The notes under the pieces were generated by a model. That model worked only from the letters and a program-made list of their open reading frames with translations, had not been told where the DNA came from and ran no database searches. This document shows, one piece after another, positions 3-20,709 of a stretch of 20,975 nucleotides of DNA. Position 1 is the stretch's first letter, and every line of letters begins with the position of its first letter. The position numbers were made by a program, and so were the translations under genes. The DNA is from a virus: positions 1 through 20,975 of IMG/VR virus record IMGVR_UViG_3300033149_001807, one strand, 5' to 3'.

Positions 3-719
3 GTGACGAAGAAGCCGGTCCCGGCAAAGCCTCGCCAGAAGAGGAAGCAGTCACGGAAGAGGACATACCAGCGCAACAGTGCCGCGCCGAAAATCGCTGC
101 GAGCGTTGGCACGCCGAGCAAATTTAATCCCGCGAAGGTCCTCGAGAACGGAACTGAAGAACGATTCTGCCAGGAGTGTCTGGTGCAGCCGAATCCCACG
201 CAAGCATACATCTCCGCGAACCCAAAGGTGACGTACGGATCCGCGGGAGTGATGTCGACACGATTGTTAAAGAAAGTTAAGGTTTGTCAGCGGATCGCGT
301 TTCTTCTCAGCAAGTCAGCCGACAAGACGATCATGAACAAGCGCGAAGCGATGAGGATCCTCACGCAGCGCGCGCGCGCGGACATGGCTGACTATGCTCA
401 CTGCGATGCCCAGGGCGCCAAGTTTGTTAAGTTCGATACGGAGGTACCGAATACCAAGGCAGTTGCCGAGATCACGACGAAGACGATCAACAGGGGCAGT
501 GGAGAGAGCGCTGAAACGGCCATCTTCACGAAGCTCAAGCTGCAGGATGGAGAGCGCGCGATCGACAAGCTGGCGAAGATGCTGGGTTGGTACACGGCCC
601 AGGAGTACGATCACCTGATTAAGGGTCAGCTGACGATTGCTGACCTGGTTGAAGCTGCGAGTGATCGTGGCCGCGGCAAGCCACCAGAGGCTCGAGGCGA
701 GAAGGATGCTTACGGTTAA
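3..719 (+). CDS. terS: Terminase small subunit
   Basis: This 238-residue protein is the likely DNA-recognition subunit of the packaging terminase, which binds the viral genome and brings it to the large subunit. The first 40 residues are rich in Lys and Arg. Residues about 52-100 carry the pattern usual in this family: an FCQECLV segment, then QAYISANPKVTYGSAG, then a LLKKVKVCQRIA helix, which fits a helix-turn-helix unit. An RADMADY segment after it is also typical. The C-terminal third is helical and probably mediates oligomers and contact with TerL. The start is GTG at position 3, so the ribosome site lies outside the window and the true start could be further upstream. TerL is 5.8 kb downstream, which is an unusual separation. 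The assignment rests on family pattern and the presence of TerL in the same genome; a general phage DNA-binding protein is the alternative. Confidence 0.82.
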   Translation: MTKKPVPAKPRQKRKQSRKRTYQRNSAAPKIAASVGTPSKFNPAKVLENGTEERFCQECLVQPNPTQAYISANPKVTYGSAGVMSTRLLKKVKVCQRIAFLLSKSADKTIMNKREAMRILTQRARADMADYAHCDAQGAKFVKFDTEVPNTKAVAEITTKTINRGSGESAETAIFTKLKLQDGERAIDKLAKMLGWYTAQEYDHLIKGQLTIADLVEAASDRGRGKPPEARGEKDAYG

Positions 720-739
720 TAACAGGAAGGAACTCAGAG

Positions 740-1138
740 ATGGAAGTATTAAAGACGCTTGAAGATGGACGTGTCCTGGTGATGGCGACTCGCGAAGAGG
801 TAATGGAGTTCACGGAAAACAGGATGAAGCTCACCAAGATGAAGGACCTCCTCCTTGACAATATGCAGCTGAGTTCTGCGGGTGGTGCCGGGACGGCGAA
901 GAAGCCGCGGCGCACTCCCCGCGGCCGGAAGCTGAAGCAGAAGCCAGTGAAGATCGATTTCAGGAAGAATGCCGAGAAGCTTCCTGCTGATGCTCCGCTG
1001 TGTAGTGTCTGTAAAGCGCCGTTCGAGCGGACGAAGCACAAACAGATCAAGTGTCCGCTGGCGCCCAGAAATCGTTTGCTGGAAAGAAGAAGGGTGAACC
1101 CAATACTGTTGGATCCTATACGATCAGTAAGGCTCTGA
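740..1138 (+). CDS. Small basic protein with half zinc-knuckle; possibly the 5' part of a frameshifted gene
   Basis: I do not recognise this 132-residue protein. It begins with a short helical region, followed by a Lys/Arg/Pro-rich linker (AKKPRRTPRGRKLKQK), then LCSVCK and KCP, which look like three of the four cysteines of a zinc ribbon. After that the sequence becomes Arg/Leu-rich and unlike a zinc ribbon. In this stretch it overlaps the next reading frame by 88 bases. The start ATG has a good AGGAAGGAA ribosome site eight bases upstream. The missing last cysteine at the point of overlap suggests that this frame and the next may be one protein of about 275 residues, joined by a minus-one frame change or broken by a sequencing indel. 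A nucleic-acid-binding role is inferred only from charge and cysteines. Confidence 0.6.
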   Translation: MEVLKTLEDGRVLVMATREEVMEFTENRMKLTKMKDLLLDNMQLSSAGGAGTAKKPRRTPRGRKLKQKPVKIDFRKNAEKLPADAPLCSVCKAPFERTKHKQIKCPLAPRNRLLERRRVNPILLDPIRSVRL

Positions 1139-1566
1139 GGCTCAATGAAGGCGACTCCCTAAAGAACAAGGTCTTGGCTATCCTGCGAGCCTCGATCGAT
1201 CCTCTGGCGACCAATCAGATCGTTGAGATTCTCGAGAGGAGGGGCCACGAGTTCAAATCCGCGAATCCAACAAATGCCATGGGGATCCTGATGCTCTCGA
1301 ATCTGGACCTGTTCGATAAGGCTGGCAAGGATGGGCCCCGTACACTCTGGAAGCCGAAGGAATCGAAGCCGCATGTCGTAGCTGATGGTGATTATGCTTG
1401 TCACAATCCAATGTGTGAGCGCACGGTCAGCCAGGAAGATACGTTCTGTCCAGATTGTAAGGCTGCACACAAGAGTTTGTCCCACATTGACCGGATCCGG
1501 ATGGAGGAGCGGATGCGCAAGGTCCGGAATGGCGAGATGAGTATTGATGAGGGGAAGGCGTGGTGA
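1051..1566 (+). CDS. Winged-helix protein with C-terminal zinc ribbon
   Basis: This frame encodes 171 residues from a GTG. Residues about 20-105 look like a winged helix: helices around SLKNKVLAILRASID and TNQIVEILERRG, then AMGILMLSNLDLFDK and a TLWKP wing. Residues about 117-139 hold a CX4C and CPDC pair, a plausible zinc ribbon. The C-terminus is a charged helix. Together these suggest a DNA-binding regulator, but no exact family is recognised. The GTG start at 1051 has no convincing ribosome site, and the frame is open back to 1015, so translation may enter from the upstream frame by a minus-one shift. The stop overlaps the next ATG (TGATG), so the downstream gene is probably translationally coupled. 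Confidence 0.68.
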   Translation: MSAGAQKSFAGKKKGEPNTVGSYTISKALRLNEGDSLKNKVLAILRASIDPLATNQIVEILERRGHEFKSANPTNAMGILMLSNLDLFDKAGKDGPRTLWKPKESKPHVVADGDYACHNPMCERTVSQEDTFCPDCKAAHKSLSHIDRIRMEERMRKVRNGEMSIDEGKAW

Positions 1567-2231
1567 TGGTAGTTAAAAAGAGAAGCGAAGGCGACGTTGT
1601 AGAGGTTTTCGACAGGTCTCTCTACGTGGATGACAAGACGACTCCTCTCTCCGTGACAATGAAGAAGGCAACCGTTGTAAAAGTATACGGCGCCATGAGG
1701 GATACATGCGATGTCCGCTTTGAGCATGATGGTAGAATCTCGCACGGACATTTCATGTGGGGTGTTCACGACATTAACCATCTGCTCTATAAGGCGCACG
1801 AAGTCAAGGTAGAGGAAGAAGCGATAGCGGAGCTGACGGATATGAATAAGCCGACAGACAACACGTTTCTTAAGCTGTGGTGTACGATCTACTACAAGCG
1901 CCTGCTGAAATTATTCAGGGAGGATCCTAAACCAAAGGAATTGTCCGACGCTGATTTCGAGTTTGAGTATGTAGACATGGAACAAGCCCCGACGAGGGAC
2001 AGAAAAGGGAGAGACATGAGAGCTGAACCAATTAAGCGGGACATGGAGTTTACCTGGAAGATAAAGCTGCTGCTTGCGATCGTGATAGCGGGGATCCTGA
2101 CGCTTGGCGTCCTCGCGTGGGTGTATGAGAAGAGCTTGGCATGGAAGCTACTGTACGAGCCGAAGGTCCAGGAGCGATTTGTTGAGCTTGATGATCGTCT
2201 GATAGAACTCGAAGACAAACTGGGAATGTAA
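1566..2231 (+). CDS. Single-span membrane protein, function unknown
   Basis: The product is 221 residues. I chose ATG 1566 over the two GTG codons just before it because it overlaps the previous stop and sits eight bases after GGGGAAGG. Residues 1-150 are soluble and mixed in charge, with no motif I recognise. Residues about 166-187 (IKLLLAIVIAGILTLGVLAW) form one transmembrane helix, and the last 25 residues are an acidic helix with heptad-like Leu/Val spacing. An in-frame ATG at 2016, preceded by AAGGGAG, would give a 71-residue product made almost only of the membrane helix and the coiled tail. The protein could be an inner-membrane anchor or belong to a lysis module, but no endolysin or spanin neighbour is visible, so no function is assigned. 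Confidence 0.72.
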   Translation: MVVKKRSEGDVVEVFDRSLYVDDKTTPLSVTMKKATVVKVYGAMRDTCDVRFEHDGRISHGHFMWGVHDINHLLYKAHEVKVEEEAIAELTDMNKPTDNTFLKLWCTIYYKRLLKLFREDPKPKELSDADFEFEYVDMEQAPTRDRKGRDMRAEPIKRDMEFTWKIKLLLAIVIAGILTLGVLAWVYEKSLAWKLLYEPKVQERFVELDDRLIELEDKLGM

Positions 2232-2249
2232 ACAGAAAGGTGGAGTGGT

Positions 2250-2855
2250 ATGAAGATGTTGGTAATGCAGACGGGCAATTATGGGACGACAGAGCAATAT
2301 CACGGTAAAAATAAGCCCGAGTTTCCAACCATACGCGGCGATGGCATGGTGGACTGGGAGAAAGAGAATCTACCCCCTAATCGGACGATAGCGTGTGTTC
2401 TCATCCCGTCCCCCGACGAGAGTTACGAGATCGTGCCCGAGGACGAGAAGAAGGGCGAGAAGCCTCTTGGGCTGAGGTCGAAATGTCTTTGCCTTCGCGA
2501 ATGGAACGACAGTAATCACACCCCCGTATGGGATCCGCAGCTGGTCTACGCCAGGCCGATCTTGAAGAAGAAGATAGGGCCGCCTGAAGGCTACGAACTT
2601 GTTCCGGATGACGAGAAACGAGGGGCGAAGAGAGTAGGGATGATGTACATGAGCCAGAAGGATGGAATATGGCACCCAGCTATGCCGGGAGAGCCCTTTA
2701 CTTCTTCTTTCGACTACGCCAGGCCGATCAAGAAGGAGTCTGGCCTCACGGCGCACCAGGAGAAGATTCGTGATAAGTCGAAAGAGTTGGTGGAGCTACT
2801 GGATTTGCCAGCGGAGAGTATTATACTTATGAATCGTCGTGAACGTGACGAGTAG
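2250..2855 (+). CDS. Protein with two tandem ~56-residue repeats
   Basis: This is a 201-residue soluble protein of unknown function with a clear internal duplication. Residues 58-104 and 114-160 align: SYEIVPEDEKKGEKPLG matches GYELVPDDEKRGAKRVG, each is followed by a Trp region, and each closes with YARPI. The spacing between copies is 56 residues. A helical tail (LTAHQEKIRDKSKELVELLDL) follows. The ribosome site AGGTGGAG precedes the ATG. The last codons and the stop run into tRNA-Asn, with ten bases shared. The repeat opening resembles the GYELV ending of the conserved phage protein at 9345-9647, so a shared small fold is possible. Duplicated small beta domains often bind a ligand or partner twice, but that is only inference here. 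Confidence 0.8.
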   Translation: MKMLVMQTGNYGTTEQYHGKNKPEFPTIRGDGMVDWEKENLPPNRTIACVLIPSPDESYEIVPEDEKKGEKPLGLRSKCLCLREWNDSNHTPVWDPQLVYARPILKKKIGPPEGYELVPDDEKRGAKRVGMMYMSQKDGIWHPAMPGEPFTSSFDYARPIKKESGLTAHQEKIRDKSKELVELLDLPAESIILMNRRERDE

Positions 2856-2920
2856 CTCAATGGTAGAGCATCTGGTTGTTACCCAGGTGGTTGCTGGTTC
2901 GAGTCCAGCCTCGTCAGCCA
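2846..2920 (+). tRNA. tRNA-Asn (anticodon GTT)
   Basis: A full cloverleaf can be drawn. The acceptor arms TGACGAG (2846-2852) and CTCGTCA pair in seven positions. The D-arm is GCTC/GAGC. The anticodon stem is TCTGG with CCAGG and closes with one T-G wobble. The loop TTGTTAC gives anticodon GTT. The T-arm is GCTGG, TTCGAGT, CCAGC, and the CCA end is encoded. Its first ten bases are also the end of the preceding protein gene, whose TAG stop lies at tRNA positions 8-10. Phage tRNAs usually supplement codon supply or replace host tRNAs cut by defence nucleases. Confidence 0.95.
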
Positions 2921-2938
2921 GGAAGGAATGAAAAGATC

Positions 2939-3505
2939 ATGAGATGTAGAGCACCATTTCCGGAGGAGTTCAAGAGTCTGTATTCAGACGACCTTGGCGG
3001 CATCGTGCGCGTTGATGTAGTTGTTGATATGAGCGTCAGGAATCTTTGTGTGAAGCCGTACCCAGGACGCAAGAAGGGTTGCCCTAACTTCGCATGTGAC
3101 AGACATCCGGACTGTCCCCCGCACTCATTGCCAATAGATCATACGATAGATCTATCAGGTACCTGCTTCGCCGCATATGAGCGGTACGACCTTGAAGCGC
3201 ACGAAGCGCGGTTCAGGGCAAACAACCCGGGCAAGGAATGGACGAAGAAACAAGCTCGTAATTTGCTGCATTGGCAGCAGGGCTGTACGAATCGTGCGAT
3301 TAATAGGGCTCAGAGATTTATTGACAAGGCCTGCTCTTGGGGAGGTTACTCTGCCGTAGTTGTCAAAGTCCCCGAAGGGCACGGGGTCCAGGTATTTGAG
3401 ACGATGGCCGCAGCTGGCGTTATTCTTGAGAGGCCCATCGATAGGTGGGTGCATAAGGTAGTTTTGATCGGATTCCCGATCTACAACTCACAAAAGGAAG
3501 GATAG
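2939..3505 (+). CDS. Cysteine-rich putative metal-binding protein
   Basis: This 188-residue protein is Cys-rich in its first half: C3, C37, C48, C53, C59 and C76, with a GCPNFACDRHPDCPPHS segment recalling predicted metal-binding families such as DUF2284, where a CPP motif takes part in metal or Fe-S binding. That family link is from memory of motif shape and is tentative. The C-terminal half (about 120-183) is an alpha/beta segment with no motif I know. I chose ATG 2939 because GGAAGGA lies 11 bases upstream; longer in-frame starts fall inside tRNA-Asn. It is separated by two bases from the acyl carrier protein gene, so the two are probably co-translated, and it could act on or with that carrier. 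Confidence 0.75.
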   Translation: MRCRAPFPEEFKSLYSDDLGGIVRVDVVVDMSVRNLCVKPYPGRKKGCPNFACDRHPDCPPHSLPIDHTIDLSGTCFAAYERYDLEAHEARFRANNPGKEWTKKQARNLLHWQQGCTNRAINRAQRFIDKACSWGGYSAVVVKVPEGHGVQVFETMAAAGVILERPIDRWVHKVVLIGFPIYNSQKEG

Positions 3506-3507
3506 AT

Positions 3508-3747
3508 ATGAGTACAATAGCCGAGAGAGTGAGCGAATGTATTGTTGATCAGCTGGGGGTTATCCCGGATCAGATGAAGCCGGAGACCAGGCTCGCGGAG
3601 GACCTGGCAGCGGATTCCCTGGACCTGGTGGAGCTGGTAATGGCGCTTGAGACCGAGTTTGCCATTGAGATCGCGGACGAGGACGCCGAGAAGCTTAAGA
3701 CCGTGAAGGACGTGACGGACTGGCTGGAGAAAGCCGGGGTGGAATGA
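3508..3747 (+). CDS. acpP: Acyl carrier protein
   Basis: This 79-residue acidic protein has the length and pattern of a type II acyl carrier protein. Bacterial ACPs carry acyl or other carboxylate groups as thioesters on a phosphopantetheine arm attached by the host transferase. The DSLD motif is present, with Ser37 as the attachment site, followed by the recognition helix LVELVMALE. Helix I (IAERVSECIVDQLGV) and helix IV (TVKDVTDWLEKAG) are also in place, so the protein looks functional. A ribosome site AAGGA precedes the ATG. The TGA stop overlaps the next ATG (ATGA). Phages rarely carry ACPs. No acyltransferase or ketosynthase is seen in the window, so the cargo is unknown. The surrounding cysteine-rich and Gp37/Gp68-like genes are candidate partners. 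Confidence 0.95.
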   Translation: MSTIAERVSECIVDQLGVIPDQMKPETRLAEDLAADSLDLVELVMALETEFAIEIADEDAEKLKTVKDVTDWLEKAGVE

Positions 3748-4073
3748 CAACGATCACCCAGGCTATAGAATCCATGCCGGAAGCTGAATGGGAGTTAAGG
3801 AAACTGCTTTGGGAAGAGCATGCGTGTCCCCTGAAATATGGTGACGATGGAGAGCGCCAGTGCGCATCGTGCCGGATAGATTTCGTCCGTGATCCTGTTT
3901 CTGTGATTAAGGCCAGGACCCAAGAACGCAACGAGACAAGAATGGTTGAATATCTGAATAGCAGGAAAGCCCCGATCCGGATGGAGTGTTCTGAGTGCGG
4001 GATTGAATCCACTGAAGATGAATGTCCAGAGTGTGGGGCGAAGACTGAGCCTGTCGACAGGGATGGGATCTAA
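3744..4073 (+). CDS. Double zinc-ribbon protein
   Basis: This gene encodes 109 residues starting at an ATG that overlaps the ACP stop by four bases, so translation is likely coupled to the carrier gene. Cysteines C28, C40 and C43 form a first cluster (ACPLKY, then CASC), possibly completed by H26. C82, C85, C94 and C97 form a clean second zinc ribbon (CSECGIESTEDECPECG). Between them lies a charged helix. Zinc ribbons of this kind bind nucleic acid or proteins; nothing visible says which. It is not a family I can name. Confidence 0.78.
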   Translation: MTTITQAIESMPEAEWELRKLLWEEHACPLKYGDDGERQCASCRIDFVRDPVSVIKARTQERNETRMVEYLNSRKAPIRMECSECGIESTEDECPECGAKTEPVDRDGI

Positions 4074-4294
4074 TGGGAAATATGTATACTTTTGTAGTTG
4101 ATCAGACGATACACAGAAATGAATCAATGGATACGAAGATCTGGGGTCCTTTCGGAGATAGGGCGGAAGCTGAGGCCTGGGCCGAGAAGGAACGTAAATC
4201 CCAGCGTCGTCTATTTGCCTCATGTAGTGATCGGCCGGCTACATGCGATTGGGAAGTGCGACCACTGCGTGATCCAGACAGCAACCAGAGATAA
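4073..4294 (+). CDS. Small hypothetical protein
   Basis: This encodes 73 residues with no recognised domain. The ATG overlaps the preceding TAA by one base (TAATG), so translation is probably coupled. The sequence suggests a beta strand (MYTFVVDQTI), a loop ending in WGPFGDRAEAEAWAEKE with a helix, and a final strand (CDWEVRPLRDP). This order is like small phage proteins with a ferredoxin-like or DUF-type fold that pair a WGPF segment with an AEAWA helix. The function is unknown. It ends two bases before the Gp37/Gp68-like gene. Confidence 0.65.
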   Translation: MGNMYTFVVDQTIHRNESMDTKIWGPFGDRAEAEAWAEKERKSQRRLFASCSDRPATCDWEVRPLRDPDSNQR

Positions 4295-4296
4295 TA

Positions 4297-4971
4297 ATGA
4301 GTAACATGTACGACAACGCGAAGACCTGGAATCCATTCAAGGGCTGTGAGTTCGACTGCTCGTACTGTCGGCCGAGCTTCCAGGCCCAGGCGAAGCGGCA
4401 GAGGAAGAACTGTGAGAAGTGCTATACCTACGAGCCACACATGCACCGGGACAGAATAAGCAATATCCCCCAGGCGGAGATTGTGTTTGCTTGCGGGAAC
4501 GGCGACATAGCCTTCTGTTCCAGCTTTTGGATCCTTGCGATGTTCGAGGAGGTGCGTCAGCGGCCGCAGCAGACATTCTACTTCCAGACAAAGATGCCCT
4601 CTTGCCTGAATGGACTTGATATACCTGACAACGTGATCCTGGTGACGACACTTGAGACGAACCGCGACAACGGATACACTGAGGCTGTTTCTGCGATCGC
4701 CCCGCTGCCCACTGAAAGGTATGAGCAGTTCAAGGCCCTGAAGCATCCTCGGAAGGTTGTCACGATTGAGCCGATCATGGAGTTTGATGAGGAGACGTTC
4801 GATCCTATGATCCGAGCACTGCGGCCCGAGTACGTCTGGGTTGGATACAACAGTCGACCGAAGCAGGTGCAGTTGCCTGAGCCGAGCCTGGCGAAGACAA
4901 TGATTCTAATTCACCGGCTGCAGGACCATGGGATTTCAGTGAAGCTGAAAACAATGCGGGAGAAACAGTAA
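4297..4971 (+). CDS. Gp37/Gp68-like (DUF5131-type) CX3CX2C protein
   Basis: The 224-residue product opens with TWNPFKGCEFDCSYC. This matches the N-terminal signature of the phage Gp37/Gp68 family, in which a TWNP-x2-GC motif carries a CX3CX2C triplet (C17, C21, C24) like the cluster-binding site of radical SAM enzymes. A second pair C39 and C42 follows. Downstream, FACGNGDIAF, FYFQTKMP, VILVTTLETN, KVVTIEPIMEF and YVWVGYNS are strand-end motifs expected of a partial TIM barrel with SAM-binding residues. The biochemical reaction of this family is not established as far as I know. The ribosome site is weak (CAGAGA), and the gene lies two bases after its neighbour in the same co-translated string that includes the ACP. 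A link between the two is an inference from position only. Confidence 0.85.
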   Translation: MSNMYDNAKTWNPFKGCEFDCSYCRPSFQAQAKRQRKNCEKCYTYEPHMHRDRISNIPQAEIVFACGNGDIAFCSSFWILAMFEEVRQRPQQTFYFQTKMPSCLNGLDIPDNVILVTTLETNRDNGYTEAVSAIAPLPTERYEQFKALKHPRKVVTIEPIMEFDEETFDPMIRALRPEYVWVGYNSRPKQVQLPEPSLAKTMILIHRLQDHGISVKLKTMREKQ

Positions 4972-4973
4972 GG

Positions 4974-5129
4974 ATGAAACCAGAAGAAAACGACAAATGT
5001 GATGAGTGCGCACTCAAGGCTCTCAAGAGGACGGTATACTGTATATTGCATTGTAATAATTATGACAAATTTGAGCCTAAAGATTCTCCACAACTTACGA
5101 TAGAACATGAAATTAAACATACCACATAA
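4974..5129 (+). CDS. Short cysteine-pair protein (51 residues)
   Basis: This short frame begins at an ATG two bases after the previous stop, with GGGAG eleven bases upstream. The product holds CDEC near residue 9 and CILHC near residue 23, a possible small zinc-binding hairpin, then a polar tail. The A+T content rises in its second half compared with neighbouring genes. It overlaps the next frame by 23 bases. It is probably real given spacing and the cysteine pairs, but its size makes this uncertain. Confidence 0.5.
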   Translation: MKPEENDKCDECALKALKRTVYCILHCNNYDKFEPKDSPQLTIEHEIKHTT

Positions 5130-5295
5130 GCTGAGGGCCGAGCGGATCCGTAGAAGCATGAGGCCATTAAGAGCTTCTGATTTCGAGGGCGGCCGGATTG
5201 GTGAGATTAATTCATTCAGATTTATTGAGAGAATAAGATTCATGGATAAACGGCAGCGCAGGCGTTACAAGCGCCGATGTGCAGAAAGGAAATAG
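5107..5295 (+). CDS. Small highly basic protein
   Basis: A 62-residue Arg/Lys-rich protein (for example RAERIRRSMRPLR and KRQRRRYKRRCAERK). Such charge suggests RNA or DNA binding. The ATG has no clear ribosome site, and the frame overlaps the end of the preceding short gene by 23 bases. The stop lies two bases before the next start, in keeping with the tight packing around it. No family is recognised. Confidence 0.55.
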   Translation: MKLNIPHKLRAERIRRSMRPLRASDFEGGRIGEINSFRFIERIRFMDKRQRRRYKRRCAERK

Positions 5296-5297
5296 TT

Positions 5298-5804
5298 ATG
5301 AACGGAGCAGACATAATAAGCGCCGAGAGAGAACGGCAGATCCACGAAGAGGGCTATTCTGCGGGACACGATGCGGCGCACGACTACAAGGACCTCCTCG
5401 ATGCCGCTTCCTGTTATCTGTGGTCAGCACAACAAGGGCCAGACGGTCACAAGGAACTCGAAGCGCCAGCACAATGGCCGTGGGATAAGGAATACTGGAA
5501 ACCGAAAACACGGTTTCACGATATGAAGCGTTGCGGTGCGCTAGTTGCAGCAGCCCTTGATCGGTTCCTGGACCAACACGCAGAGGAACATACTGAGCAA
5601 GAGCCCGATGGCCGGGGAACGGATACCAATAAATTCTTATTGGATCAGAACTTCGACCTGAGGGAGCAGCGCAGGGTATTGAACGATAGGGTTGCGGCGG
5701 TGGAGAAAGCCCTGGAGGGCCGAGCGGCTGCCATCATCGAGACAATGTCTGAGAAGCAGATGGGGGAAGCTGGCTGGGTGCGACCTCATAGAATGGGCGG
5801 ATAA
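5298..5804 (+). CDS. MazG-like phage protein (possible dNTP pyrophosphohydrolase fold)
   Basis: This 168-residue protein begins with AERERQIHEEGYSAGHD and continues with an AA-rich helix and WPWDKEYWKPK (residues 60-70), then DMKRCGALVAAALDRF. This order is well known in small phage proteins that resemble the all-alpha MazG/dATP-dGTP diphosphohydrolase group, where acidic helices bind Mg-dNTP. Whether it is enzymatically active cannot be told by eye. Residues about 108-160 form a separate, probably coiled-coil, helical extension. I chose ATG 5298 because AAAGGA sits just upstream; an earlier in-frame ATG at 5277 has no site. It is followed by the longest non-coding stretch of the window. Confidence 0.7.
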   Translation: MNGADIISAERERQIHEEGYSAGHDAAHDYKDLLDAASCYLWSAQQGPDGHKELEAPAQWPWDKEYWKPKTRFHDMKRCGALVAAALDRFLDQHAEEHTEQEPDGRGTDTNKFLLDQNFDLREQRRVLNDRVAAVEKALEGRAAAIIETMSEKQMGEAGWVRPHRMGG

Positions 5805-5811
5805 TGCAAAG

Positions 5812-5897
5812 ATTTCGGGAGGGGTTGTTGAATAAGAATAGTTCGGTCTCATTAATCGCTAAATCGTTCGGGTGTTCCGAGCGTCCAGCCCCTCTCG
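5812..5897 (+). ncRNA. Structured RNA element, copy A
   Basis: Opening GATTT is followed by CGGGAGGGGTTG (5816-5827), which pairs with CAGCCCCTCTCG (5886-5897) in 12 positions, including G-T wobbles. Inside, just before the 3' arm, CGTTCGG and CCGAGCG form a seven-pair stem with loop GTGTT (5865-5883), followed by TC. Copy B 5 bases later has the same plan with different bases at paired positions, which is strong evidence for RNA structure. The strand is assumed from the surrounding genes. I match it to no family I know. Confidence 0.65.
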
Positions 5898-5901
5898 TTT
5901 T

Positions 5902-6054
5902 GATTTCGGTAAGAGCTGATGAAAAACAGTAGGGATAATGGTGAAGCTGAAGAAGAAGCGAACGAGCGAAAGCACGGGAGTCTTGGTTGGAGGCATAACG
6001 TTGCCCTGAGTAATATCTATTCGTCTGGGAGTTCCAGGCGTCCAGCTCTTACCG
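5902..6054 (+). ncRNA. Structured RNA element, copy B
   Basis: GATTT opens this copy also. CGGTAAGAGCTG (5907-5918) pairs perfectly with CAGCTCTTACCG (6043-6054). CGTCTGG and CCAGGCG form the same seven-pair inner stem as in copy A, here with loop GAGTT (6022-6040), again followed by TC. The interior is about 67 bases longer than in copy A and contains a 23-codon frame at 5938-6009. The element ends 22 bases before the start of the next gene, with a strong ribosome site (AAAAAAGGAG) between, so it could also act in cis as a leader. It could equally be a small trans-acting RNA. Confidence 0.65.
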
Positions 6055-6076
6055 ATACTAAAAAAGGAGAGATGAT

Positions 6077-6337
6077 ATGAAAGGTCGATGTGTAAAAGAC
6101 TTAATGCTGCCAGACGGCAGGTGTAATGCTGCCACAGGCCTACACACGAAATGCCCGAAGGATCCGAAGAAGTGCAAGAGGTTCGAGAAGGATGCTGACT
6201 TCTACACGGCCAAGCGGGTGGTGAAGCTGCTTGACGGGAAGAAGGCGTTACGGACGACGCTGCCGAAGCACCTGGACAAGAAGAAGTTCATGGCGATGTT
6301 GGTTGCCGATGTGGAGTCGGTGCTGAAGGAAGACTGA
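6077..6337 (+). CDS. Small cysteine- and lysine-rich protein
   Basis: An 86-residue basic protein. C5, C16, C26 and C33 lie in the first 35 residues and could bind one zinc ion. The rest is a Lys-rich helical region (AKRVVKLLDGKKALR, then HLDKKKFMAMLVADVESVLKED). The ribosome site AAGGAGAG is strong. It directly follows the tandem RNA elements, so it is the gene most likely to be affected if they act in cis. The function is unknown. Confidence 0.78.
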   Translation: MKGRCVKDLMLPDGRCNAATGLHTKCPKDPKKCKRFEKDADFYTAKRVVKLLDGKKALRTTLPKHLDKKKFMAMLVADVESVLKED

Positions 6338-6362
6338 TATTAACAACGAAGAGGGAGGAATC

Positions 6363-6524
6363 ATGGATCCGAAAGATAAACATGTGGCGATAGATATTGA
6401 GATCGAGGGACCTGCAGCTGATGACTTTCTGCGCTTGGTTGAGCAGATGGTCAAGCGTGAGGCCGAGAAGTGGGAAGGCATCAAGGTTTCTTCTATGAGC
6501 AAGTTGGAGAAGAAGGAAGACTGA
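6363..6524 (+). CDS. Short protein coupled to terL (53 residues)
   Basis: A 53-residue protein with a strong GGGAGGAA site before its ATG. The stop overlaps the ATG of the large terminase (TGATG). A strand (HVAIDIEIEGPAADDF) and an amphipathic helix (LVEQMVKREAEKWEG) are suggested. It may be a small packaging accessory or simply help to initiate translation of terL. No family is recognised, but the spacing on both sides makes it credible. Confidence 0.7.
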   Translation: MDPKDKHVAIDIEIEGPAADDFLRLVEQMVKREAEKWEGIKVSSMSKLEKKED

Positions 6525-8053
6525 TGGCTGTAGACGCTCCAGATAGTCACCTGCTCTCTAAGCGGTGGCGTATGAACAATCTCTACATGATTGTGAACAA
6601 GGAAGGCAAGGAGGTCCTCTTTCGCTTCAATGAAGTGCAGGAGGATCTCTTCGTCAACATCTGGGACATGAACGTTATCCTGAAGGCGCGCCAGGAGGGG
6701 TTCACTACGTTCATCTGCATCTACTTCCTGGACGAGTGCCTGTTCAACTCCAACGTTGAAGCCGGAATCATTGCCCACACCAAGGATGACGCTGGCGAGA
6801 TCTTCCGGAGAAAGATCCAGTTCCCGTACGAGCACCTTCCTCCGGAGATAGCAGCCACCAGGACCCTCACGACAGACTCCAAGGTTAAGATGGGATTCTC
6901 GAATGGATCCGTAATGAGTGTGGGTACCAGTATGAGATCCGCGACGCTGCAGTACCTCCTGGTATCTGAGCTTGGAAAGATCGCGAAGATGTATCCGGAG
7001 AAGGCCAGGGAAATCATGACGGGATCCCTGGAGACGGTTGGCAAGGGTGATACTTTGATTTTTGTGGAGTCCACCGGGGAGGGGCGAAGTGGCGCATACT
7101 ACGATCTATGCGACAGAGCTCGCAAACTTGAAGAAGCCAACAAGGCTCTCACCCGGATGGACTTCCGTTTCCATTTCTACCCTTGGTTCGATTGTCCGGA
7201 CTATGTGCTGCATGAACCAGTTTCGATCAAGAAGGAAATGAGTAACTACTTCCGGGACGTTGAGGTAGAGATCAGCGAGCTGCGCGGTCCCTTCAAATTG
7301 ACCCAGGCGCAGAAGGCCTGGTACATCAAGAAGCGAGACAACCTGGGCGATGACATCAAGCGGGAATATCCTTCGACGCCAGATGAGGCATTCGAGTCCG
7401 GGATCCAGGGAACGTACTTCAAGACCCAGTTCCGGAGGATGCGCGAGGACGGCCGCATCACGAAGGTACCGCACCAGGGTGGCATAGCTGTAGATGTCTG
7501 GATGGATCTCGGGATGGATGACAGCATGTCCTTGTGGTTTACCCAGGATATCGGCCGCGAGCTGCACGTCATCAACTACTACGAGAACAATGGTGAGGGC
7601 CTGGAGTTCTACAAAGACTACCTCGACGGCCTGAGGAGTACTCACCGGTACCAGTACGGCCGCATAGTGGCGCCGTTCGATATCAAGGTCCGGGAACTTG
7701 GTACTGGCGTGAGCAGGCTCGAGACAGCGCGTAACCTTGGGATGCAGATGGAGGTTGCCCCGAAGGTTGAGAAGAAGATGGACGGGATCCAGAAGACCAG
7801 GAGTCTATTGGGATCCTGTTGGTTTGATGAGGAGAACTGTGGGGGCGGACTCGACCACATGGAGGACTACCGCAAGGAATGGGATCCTGTCCACGGTGTA
7901 TACCGGGACTCTCCTCTTCACAACGCCGACAGTCATGCAGCTGATGCCTTCCAGACGTTGTCTACAGCACACACTTACAGGCAGACGAGAACAGGTCGAC
8001 CGCGCGCGCGGAAGAAGGCCGTTAGAATCAGATCATCGAAAGGGTGGGCATAA
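6524..8053 (+). CDS. terL: Terminase large subunit (ATPase and nuclease)
   Basis: The product (509 residues) is the packaging motor. The N-terminal ATPase domain has the terminase-type Walker A-like KARQEGFT (K54 to T61), with Q-x-G-x-T in place of the classical P-loop, and Walker B-like LLVSELGK (S148, E149). VESTGEGRSG probably forms the coupling motif. The C-terminal RNase H-like nuclease shows WMDLGMDDS (D328) and HNADSHAADAFQ (D469, H471, D474), the metal-binding acidic residues that cut concatemeric DNA. The length is normal for the family. ATG 6524 overlaps the previous stop and is preceded by GAAGGAAG; a longer frame from 6470 would overlap the short gene. The stop overlaps the ATG of the AAA ATPase gene by one base. 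Confidence 0.96.
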   Translation: MAVDAPDSHLLSKRWRMNNLYMIVNKEGKEVLFRFNEVQEDLFVNIWDMNVILKARQEGFTTFICIYFLDECLFNSNVEAGIIAHTKDDAGEIFRRKIQFPYEHLPPEIAATRTLTTDSKVKMGFSNGSVMSVGTSMRSATLQYLLVSELGKIAKMYPEKAREIMTGSLETVGKGDTLIFVESTGEGRSGAYYDLCDRARKLEEANKALTRMDFRFHFYPWFDCPDYVLHEPVSIKKEMSNYFRDVEVEISELRGPFKLTQAQKAWYIKKRDNLGDDIKREYPSTPDEAFESGIQGTYFKTQFRRMREDGRITKVPHQGGIAVDVWMDLGMDDSMSLWFTQDIGRELHVINYYENNGEGLEFYKDYLDGLRSTHRYQYGRIVAPFDIKVRELGTGVSRLETARNLGMQMEVAPKVEKKMDGIQKTRSLLGSCWFDEENCGGGLDHMEDYRKEWDPVHGVYRDSPLHNADSHAADAFQTLSTAHTYRQTRTGRPRARKKAVRIRSSKGWA

Positions 8054-11620: not shown

Positions 11621-11946
11621 TGGCAGAGAAAAATGATAAAGGAATTGGACCACTACAATTCGATCTTCTGGCGTGTGCTGATAAATTTGGGATGGACGTA
11701 AGGATTCATCACACACAAGGGGATGGTCACGCAGTGGCGCATACTGTTGTAATGAAGAAGCATAAAGAGGGTACGCTGATCCCGTCGGCCATGCACCTCG
11801 AGCCGGAGGAACTGCAGAGCCTTGCGAATGCTCTCGGCCGCGTGGGGATTTATCCACGAAACATTGATCGCCATGTCAAGGACCTGGAGCTACGGGTAAA
11901 GTCGCTCGAGGGGGACATGGAGGATATCAAACCAAGACTGACATGA
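11620..11946 (+). CDS. Hypothetical protein with C-terminal coiled coil
   Basis: A 108-residue protein. ATG 11620 overlaps the preceding stop (TGATG) and follows AAAAGGAG, so it is preferred to the GTG three bases earlier. The middle includes a strand-rich part (DVRIHHTQGDGHAVAHTVVM) and the end is a heptad-like helix (KDLELRVKSLEGDMEDIK) that could oligomerise. No family is recognised. Confidence 0.68.
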   Translation: MAEKNDKGIGPLQFDLLACADKFGMDVRIHHTQGDGHAVAHTVVMKKHKEGTLIPSAMHLEPEELQSLANALGRVGIYPRNIDRHVKDLELRVKSLEGDMEDIKPRLT

Positions 11947-12146
11947 ACAGACGATCTTTCATGAAGAGGGCGTGTACTGGCGCCGCGGCAGTGGCCCTGG
12001 GGATCCCCGGGGTTACTGGAAAGCGGCATTCAGCCGGGATATCGAATATCGTTCGTAAATGGCCGGCCGGAACAGGATACATTCCGATGCTGTACGCGCC
12101 CAAGTTTCTTGAGATGTACTATAGCCGGCACCCCTTGGTGCCATAA
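11943..12146 (+). CDS. Microprotein with twin-arginine (Tat) signal
   Basis: This 67-residue protein begins NRRSFMKRACTGAAAVALG, which fits the Tat consensus: twin Arg, a residue, Phe, a hydrophobic residue, Lys, then a moderately hydrophobic alanine-rich core. Tat exports folded proteins in bacteria. After the signal only about 40 residues remain. They end in GYIPMLYAPKFLEMYYSRHP, which resembles AYIPQMYATTTLVKYYAKSA near the N-terminus of the major capsid protein at 19083-20012 (eight identities in 22 positions by eye). No ribosome site is clear; the ATG overlaps the previous stop and may rely on coupling. Alternatively the pattern could be a chance basic-hydrophobic start of a capsid-like fragment. 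Confidence 0.65.
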   Translation: MNRRSFMKRACTGAAAVALGIPGVTGKRHSAGISNIVRKWPAGTGYIPMLYAPKFLEMYYSRHPLVP

Positions 12147-20115: not shown

Positions 20116-20601
20116 ATGGCAACGACATACGACAAAACAGTCGGCGGAACAGCCGAATTGAATGTCACTGAAGCGGGCTATTACTTCACCCTTCGCAGGA
20201 AGTACAACACAGACTCGGACGCAGACGGGAATGTAGTGAGCGGCGACACACTGTCGCTCTTGAACATTCCAGCAGATACGTTTGTGGAGAGGATAGCAAT
20301 CATTGTTGAGACCATCGAAGATGGTACTCTTACGGTTGATGTCGGTGACGGATCGGGAGCCGCAGGCTTCCTTGACGATGCCAACATGGAATCCCTCGAC
20401 ACCAAGATCACAACGCTGGCACTGACTGAAGCTACGCCGAACACGGTCACCGGTTATACGAACGGAAAACTGTATACCGCTGCTGACACGATCGACATGC
20501 TCTTCAACAACGCTGCCGACACTGTGAAGTTCGAGATTGTTGCACTCTGCATAAGGCTGAAGAAGGCCGACGCACAGAACAACCCAGTAGGGTCTACCTG
20601 A
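20116..20601 (+). CDS. Head decoration-like protein
   Basis: A 161-residue beta-rich protein directly after the major capsid gene. It has repeated strands with Thr/Val/Ile (TLSLLNIPADTFVERIAIIV, TLTVDVGDGSG, ALTEATPNTVTG) as in phage decoration or cement proteins that bind the outer surface of the shell. No exact family is recognised, so the role comes from position and composition. The ribosome site AGAGGAGACGAGG is strong but its AGGAG is paired with CTCCT in a five-pair hairpin (20095-20107). A hairpin follows the gene. Confidence 0.72.
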   Translation: MATTYDKTVGGTAELNVTEAGYYFTLRRKYNTDSDADGNVVSGDTLSLLNIPADTFVERIAIIVETIEDGTLTVDVGDGSGAAGFLDDANMESLDTKITTLALTEATPNTVTGYTNGKLYTAADTIDMLFNNAADTVKFEIVALCIRLKKADAQNNPVGST

Positions 20602-20644
20602 TCCTGGGCTGAGGAAAAGCCCGAAGAATAGCTGACGGAAATGA

Positions 20645-20673
20645 CCAGGGGGTCGGCGACACCGACCCCCTGG
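20645..20673 (+). terminator. Strong hairpin after decoration-like gene
   Basis: CCAGGGGGTCGG (20645-20656) and CCGACCCCCTGG (20662-20673) pair in all 12 positions with loop CGACA. It lies 44 bases after the stop, without a T run following. It is the most stable simple hairpin in the window and would separate the capsid block from the genes beyond. Confidence 0.75.
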
Positions 20674-20709
20674 CTTACTGCCAACGACAAAGAGAAGGAG
20701 GAGGCAATC

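Follow-up and report, generated by a model that had tools for sequence, protein, structure and literature searches.

In phages such as T7, the hairpins that RNase III processes are repeated stems that lie between cistrons of a polycistronic message, just upstream of a ribosome site, and each of these sites is a single irregular hairpin without a conserved branched junction. In prophage genomes, multiple hammerhead ribozymes flank genes and have been proposed to process long phage transcripts (PMC3088659), and the put RNAs of phage HK022, which are about 70 nt in length, act in cis on transcription (PMC9378689). Here we analyzed a viral DNA stretch of 20,975 nt (IMG/VR record IMGVR_UViG_3300033149_001807; hereafter the window), in which an earlier note, made from the sequence alone, had pointed to two tandem, covarying copies of an unrecognized structured RNA. 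The analysis suggests from the sequence a selected RNA device, seen so far in one virus, whose job we infer below.

The copies lie between an ORF that ends at 5804 and one that starts at 6077. With 272 nt, this gap is the largest inter-ORF gap in the window (the earlier note had called it the largest of the accessory block), and the Shine-Dalgarno sequence of the downstream gene is strong, as previously described (Table 1). The gap carries two direct-repeat elements back to back, A and then B, in which the letters differ and the folded plan is the same. Each copy has a 12-bp outer stem (P1) and a 7-bp inner stem (P3), and both share the GNGUU loop and the UC joint between P3 and the 3' arm of P1. 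These features, together with the 67-nt difference in length between A (87 nt) and B (154 nt), were each given correctly in the earlier note; its shared 5' sequence, GATTTCGG, is also present in both copies, starting at 5811 in A, one base before the 5812 given there, and at 5902 in B. The P1 stem of B ends 8 nt before the Shine-Dalgarno sequence and 22 nt before the ATG of the 6077 gene. RNAfold recovered P1 and P3 of both copies unprompted, from the joint sequence and from each copy alone. The P2 region is weak, being short in A and having a prediction that is not conserved between the copies, and the 5947-6015 region of B folds no better than shuffles (z -0.32). Since the unpaired junction strands beside P1 and P3 are conserved, each copy reads best, from its sequence, not simply as nested hairpins but as a three-way junction in which the P2 branch varies. 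The conserved strands, predicted to be unpaired at the junction, are NUGAANAANANUAG and CUNANUAAUNNCUA(A)NU; a covarying, Rfam-unmatched RNA pair on the + strand is supported, and the earlier note, which pointed to the covariation, had overlooked these strands. A candidate pseudoknot in A, GATTT/AAATC, was dropped because its pairing is not kept in B.

Table 1 Coordinates of the tandem elements and of the neighboring features in the window.
Feature	Position	Strand	Remarks
Terminase small subunit	3-719		
42-aa ORF	5804-5932	+	TAATG overlap with upstream gene; low coding score, without homologue
Element A	5811-5901	+	GATTT leader, P1, J1/2, short P2 region, J2/3, P3 with GUGUU loop, UC joint, P1 3' arm
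A P1 5' arm CGGGAGGGGTTG	5816-5827	+	pairs with 5886-5897
A J1/2 TTGAATAAGAATAG	5828-5841	+	10/14 identical to B
A J2/3 CTCATTAATCGCTAAAT	5848-5864	+	11/16 identical to B, one deletion
A P3 hairpin CGTTCGG-GTGTT-CCGAGCG	5865-5883	+	arms 5865-5871/5877-5883; followed by TC joint 5884-5885
A P1 3' arm CAGCCCCTCTCG	5886-5897	+	
Element B	5902-6058	+	plan as in A; about 67 nt extra within P2 region
B P1 5' arm CGGTAAGAGCTG	5907-5918	+	pairs with 6043-6054
B J1/2 ATGAAAAACAGTAG	5919-5932	+	
53-aa ORF	5919-6080	+	ATGA overlap with 6077 gene; low coding score, without homologue
B insert region	5933-6005	+	replaces short P2 loop of A
B P3 hairpin CGTCTGG-GAGTT-CCAGGCG	6022-6040	+	arms 6022-6028/6034-6040; followed by TC joint 6041-6042
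B P1 3' arm CAGCTCTTACCG	6043-6054	+	
Shine-Dalgarno AAAGGAGAG of downstream gene	6063-6071	+	
Downstream gene	6077-6337	+	86 aa, basic, four Cys; no match in Pfam, PHROGs or NCBIfam
Terminase large subunit	about 6539-8053		

Comparison of the two copies shows that the pairing is kept while the bases change. Among the 19 stem pairs, 12 are identical, five are changed on both sides (three in P1 and two in P3), a further two carry a one-sided change (G-U to G-C and U-G to C-G), and no pair is broken, which bears out the claim of two tandem copies with differing bases and kept pairing, whose arms could be located at exact coordinates. When the same 12 stem substitutions were placed randomly on A, all 19 pairs survived in one of 300,000 trials, and shifting the pairing register lowered the paired cells from 100% to 32-50% with at most one double change. 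A letter-shuffle control, which is weak with two alignment rows, gave 14/500. The junction strands are conserved in a fixed register: the matches directly 3' of P1 (10/14) and directly 5' of P3 (11/16) have permutation p values of 0.0013 and 0.0006, respectively, and both together never occurred in 100,000 permutations. Furthermore, a loose descriptor (a 7-bp hairpin plus a 12-bp perfect outer stem) is passed by both A and B and returned 0 or 1 hit per shuffle in 20 whole-window shuffles. A, B and the two together all fold with z-scores of about -3.0 to -3.5; since the 100-nt tile that covers A comes 6th among 836 tiles by folding energy, this energy alone is unexceptional and would not have flagged the region. 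The two most extreme folding values in the window, with z about -6, are at 7751-7850 (+), inside the terminase gene, and at 20601-20700 (both strands), just past the ORF ending at 20601, where the outlier may be a terminator. The covariation is a single comparison of two paralogues on one contig, and we consider it likely that A and B are diverged tandem copies of one selected + strand RNA. The structure is well supported by the sequence, and the function is what we infer from it.

Rfam 15 gave no credible family over the element, even with E relaxed to 10. At relaxed thresholds the best matches reached 10 to 16 bits, where the gathering scores are 40 to 50, and are consistent with chance; the only Rfam matches in the window were two tRNAs. 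This agrees with the earlier note, whose reader knew of no family of this plan and had named a match to a known Rfam family as one finding that would overturn the claim; no such match was obtained. Three candidate identities were rejected: a tRNA-like reading, as ARAGORN and Rfam show the two normal tRNAs only; a C/D-box sRNA, for which UGAUGA is present in B and absent in A and the Rfam match reaches 10 bits only; and c-di-GMP-II-GAG on the minus strand, where 16 bits against 40 was taken as chance. A covariance model was made from the two copies, and searches with it took in about 100 loci altogether. In 585 kb of phage loci, either terminase-related or picked up by the pattern scans, A and B were the sole matches, 31 whole related records gave nothing at E<=1, and 648 kb of other loci gave weak partial or low-scoring matches below 20 bits (A scores 110 and B 45). 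Among the matches listed by five IMG/VR pattern scans on different conserved parts, none had both stems in full, and neither did any match in a pattern scan of 84,980 prokaryote genomes; these scans require the chosen letters to match exactly and would miss homologues that have diverged, so an empty result does not equal absence. BLASTN against phages and plasmids returned short chance matches only, the flanking proteins (86 aa and 163 aa) have no related locus in IMG/VR, and the element is absent from the terminase relatives (52 loci, at most 50% identity). The phage is without a close relative in the data, its best terminase match being 50% identical and its best capsid match 48%. The window holds no further copies besides A and B. 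Hence the "family" of the earlier note is not supported, as no homologue beyond this contig was found in the pattern scans of IMG/VR and genomes or in the covariance searches, and homologues with compensatory changes were not found outside the two paralogues, which on this point counts against that note.

There are three G-U pairs in A and one in B, the U-G pair of P3 being the same in both, and on the minus strand they become A-C mismatches. Since these pairs are sensible on the + strand only, the RNA is placed on that strand, on which the main genes run. The same preference argues against DNA-level palindromes, that is, remnants or signals of mobile or replication elements in which the paired changes would stem from template switching and not from RNA selection. 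Quasi-palindrome correction can indeed yield paired changes without selection, and the length of the inverted repeats (21 nt, 86% for B) and the fact that the searches found no RNA homologues would suit this explanation; however, the junction strands and the loop are conserved between the copies although they lie outside the palindromic arms, the window has no additional copies, and no transposase was recognized among the neighboring genes tested, so that we regard it as quite unlikely. Another explanation is that the 42-aa and 53-aa ORFs are overlapping small genes holding a duplicated coding stretch, with the structure being secondary. Their TAATG and ATGA start/stop overlaps are typical of a phage gene chain, and a conserved 26-mer is in the same codon register in both ORFs. 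Against this, they score -0.06 and 0.01 bits per codon, respectively, for coding potential, compared with about 0.07 or more in 33 of the 34 other genes (range about 0.07 to 0.47), and neither ORF has a protein homologue in our searches. Moreover, most differences between A and B alter the amino acid in the shared register, the changes lie at stem positions that pair with each other, the difference in length (67 nt) is not divisible by 3, and an open 42-codon frame turns up in 7% of shuffles. Small genes thus appear improbable as the explanation, and the gap is taken, from its sequence, as mainly non-coding, within which a leader peptide may exist. The earlier note had named a decayed coding sequence as another finding that would overturn its reading; both gap ORFs score as non-coding.

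From 5000 to 6600, we found no sigma-70-like promoter and no + strand terminator-like site (a GC-rich stem with a T run directly behind it, under a short-loop rule), which fits read-through transcription without showing it; an intrinsic terminator was rejected as the identity of the element on the latter result. Both absences also weigh against a trans-acting small RNA, whose modules would be excised or transcribed alone and would have their targets in the host or the phage, or would titrate a host protein, as does the leader-like placement of the element directly upstream of a same-direction gene with a strong Shine-Dalgarno sequence. The tandem modules are compact and stable, as would befit such an RNA, and their conserved unpaired strands are possible protein or RNA binding sites, but on balance we judge action in trans to be unlikely. 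A riboswitch-like or translational switch would make different use of the junction: a ligand or protein would hold it while P1 of B forms, and on opening, the 3' arm of P1 would pair with the Shine-Dalgarno sequence. When the 5' arm of P1 is left out, the 3' arm (6047-6053) does pair with 6066-6072 and hides the Shine-Dalgarno sequence, and the conserved junction could be the binding site. However, 20% of shuffled leaders hide this sequence equally, so that the pairing is no better than chance. A helix of 12 bp such as P1 would also be very stable for a switch, and element A would play no part; we give such a switch very little credence. As for the functions proposed in the earlier note, an sRNA family, a packaging RNA or a tandem leader regulator, there is direct evidence for none of the three.

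The RNA pair is located inside a 5.8-kb cargo (719-6539) that parts the small and large terminase subunits. Two annotated phages, L222 and L223, have the terminase genes adjacent or overlapping. The same apparently holds for the nearest relative, L002, where a TerS-sized gene lies directly before the large subunit gene and overlaps it. The cargo also includes a tRNA-Asn and a phage-encoded acyl carrier protein (3508-3747), identified by NCBIfam NF002148 (E 2.8e-30) and by the PHROG of that name. A further gene (4297-4971) is weakly radical-SAM-like: its matches to TIGR04471 (radical SAM mobile pair protein A) and to DUF5131 stay under the curated cut-offs. The large subunit gene is followed by genes for an AAA ATPase, the portal and the major capsid protein; the AAA ATPase (PF00004, 8044-9324) comes directly after it, and the order in the annotated relative L222 is terminase-portal. 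In a phage cargo region, a 67-aa ORF (11943-12146) starts with MNRRSFMKRACTGAAAVALG, a lookalike of a twin-arginine export signal.

The best explanation as a whole is a selected tandem RNA that acts in cis at an intercistronic boundary, to which we assign a probability of roughly 0.5; given that a selected + strand RNA is present, action in cis is probable. A presumed polycistronic phage transcript would span an accessory gene, the RNA pair, and the small gene leading to the large terminase subunit, and the pair, folded in three dimensions around its putative junctions, would mark the intercistronic boundary in this long message. A nuclease, RNase III of the host for instance, or a protein that binds the RNA and recognizes the junction might then process or stabilize the message, and this would set the expression of the 6077 gene and of the genes after it. 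We count the prophage hammerheads as a precedent supporting a transcript-processing role for A and B (PMC3088659). If real, the pair adds a branched RNA architecture that Rfam does not know to the few structured RNAs that punctuate phage messages, and a tandem pair with built-in covariation is a searchable model for larger metagenome sets. At present it is an orphan, two paralogues from one contig, and matters mainly as a testable candidate.

Of the known systems, the T7-type RNase III sites resemble A and B in having repeated stems in an intercistronic gap before a ribosome site and differ from them in the branched junction present here; the 12-bp stem would be a candidate substrate. HK022 likewise has two similar structured RNAs in one phage, putL and putR, yet these antitermination RNAs are formed by two side-by-side stem-loops downstream of two early promoters (PMC9378689), whereas here each copy branches inside a single outer stem, A and B are adjacent, and no sigma-70-like promoter was found from 5000 to 6600, so the pair does not qualify as put RNA. 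The put RNAs may be regarded as a functional parallel of paired cis RNAs with a different fold. The likeness to the type I hammerhead ribozymes that phages and prophages carry (PMC3088659) includes a putative three-way junction that is open at stem I, a short joint from stem III to stem I with UC at its end, an intergenic position in phage with several copies near each other, and a partly similar J1/2 (NUGAANA here, CUGANGA in the hammerhead). P1 and P3, both strong, follow the type I order, with P2 as the weak branch. However, both copies lack C3, G8, G12 and A15.1. In place of the C3-G8 pair, A has U/U and B has A/A at positions 3/8, and in place of the G12 and A15.1 of GAAA, the strand leading into P3 reads CUAAAU in A and UCUAUU in B, with U directly before P3 in both. 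Natural hammerhead variants with a covarying U3-A8 pair or with U15.1-A16.1 (PMC3088659) do not account for these cores. A CUGAUGA word in B (5916-5922) overlaps the end of the P1 5' arm; since CUGANGA occurs 20 times on the + strand of the window, we do not consider it significant. A hammerhead was rejected: the predicted topology fits, the catalytic core fails in both copies, and Rfam gave no hammerhead match to E=10. That the tandem junctions form a new class of small RNA, catalytic or ligand-binding, which has a hammerhead-like topology with a different core and cuts or gates phage transcripts between genes, seems to us a long shot. By analogy with the prophage ribozymes, A and B may nonetheless work like a transcript-punctuating element, yet one that is not a hammerhead.
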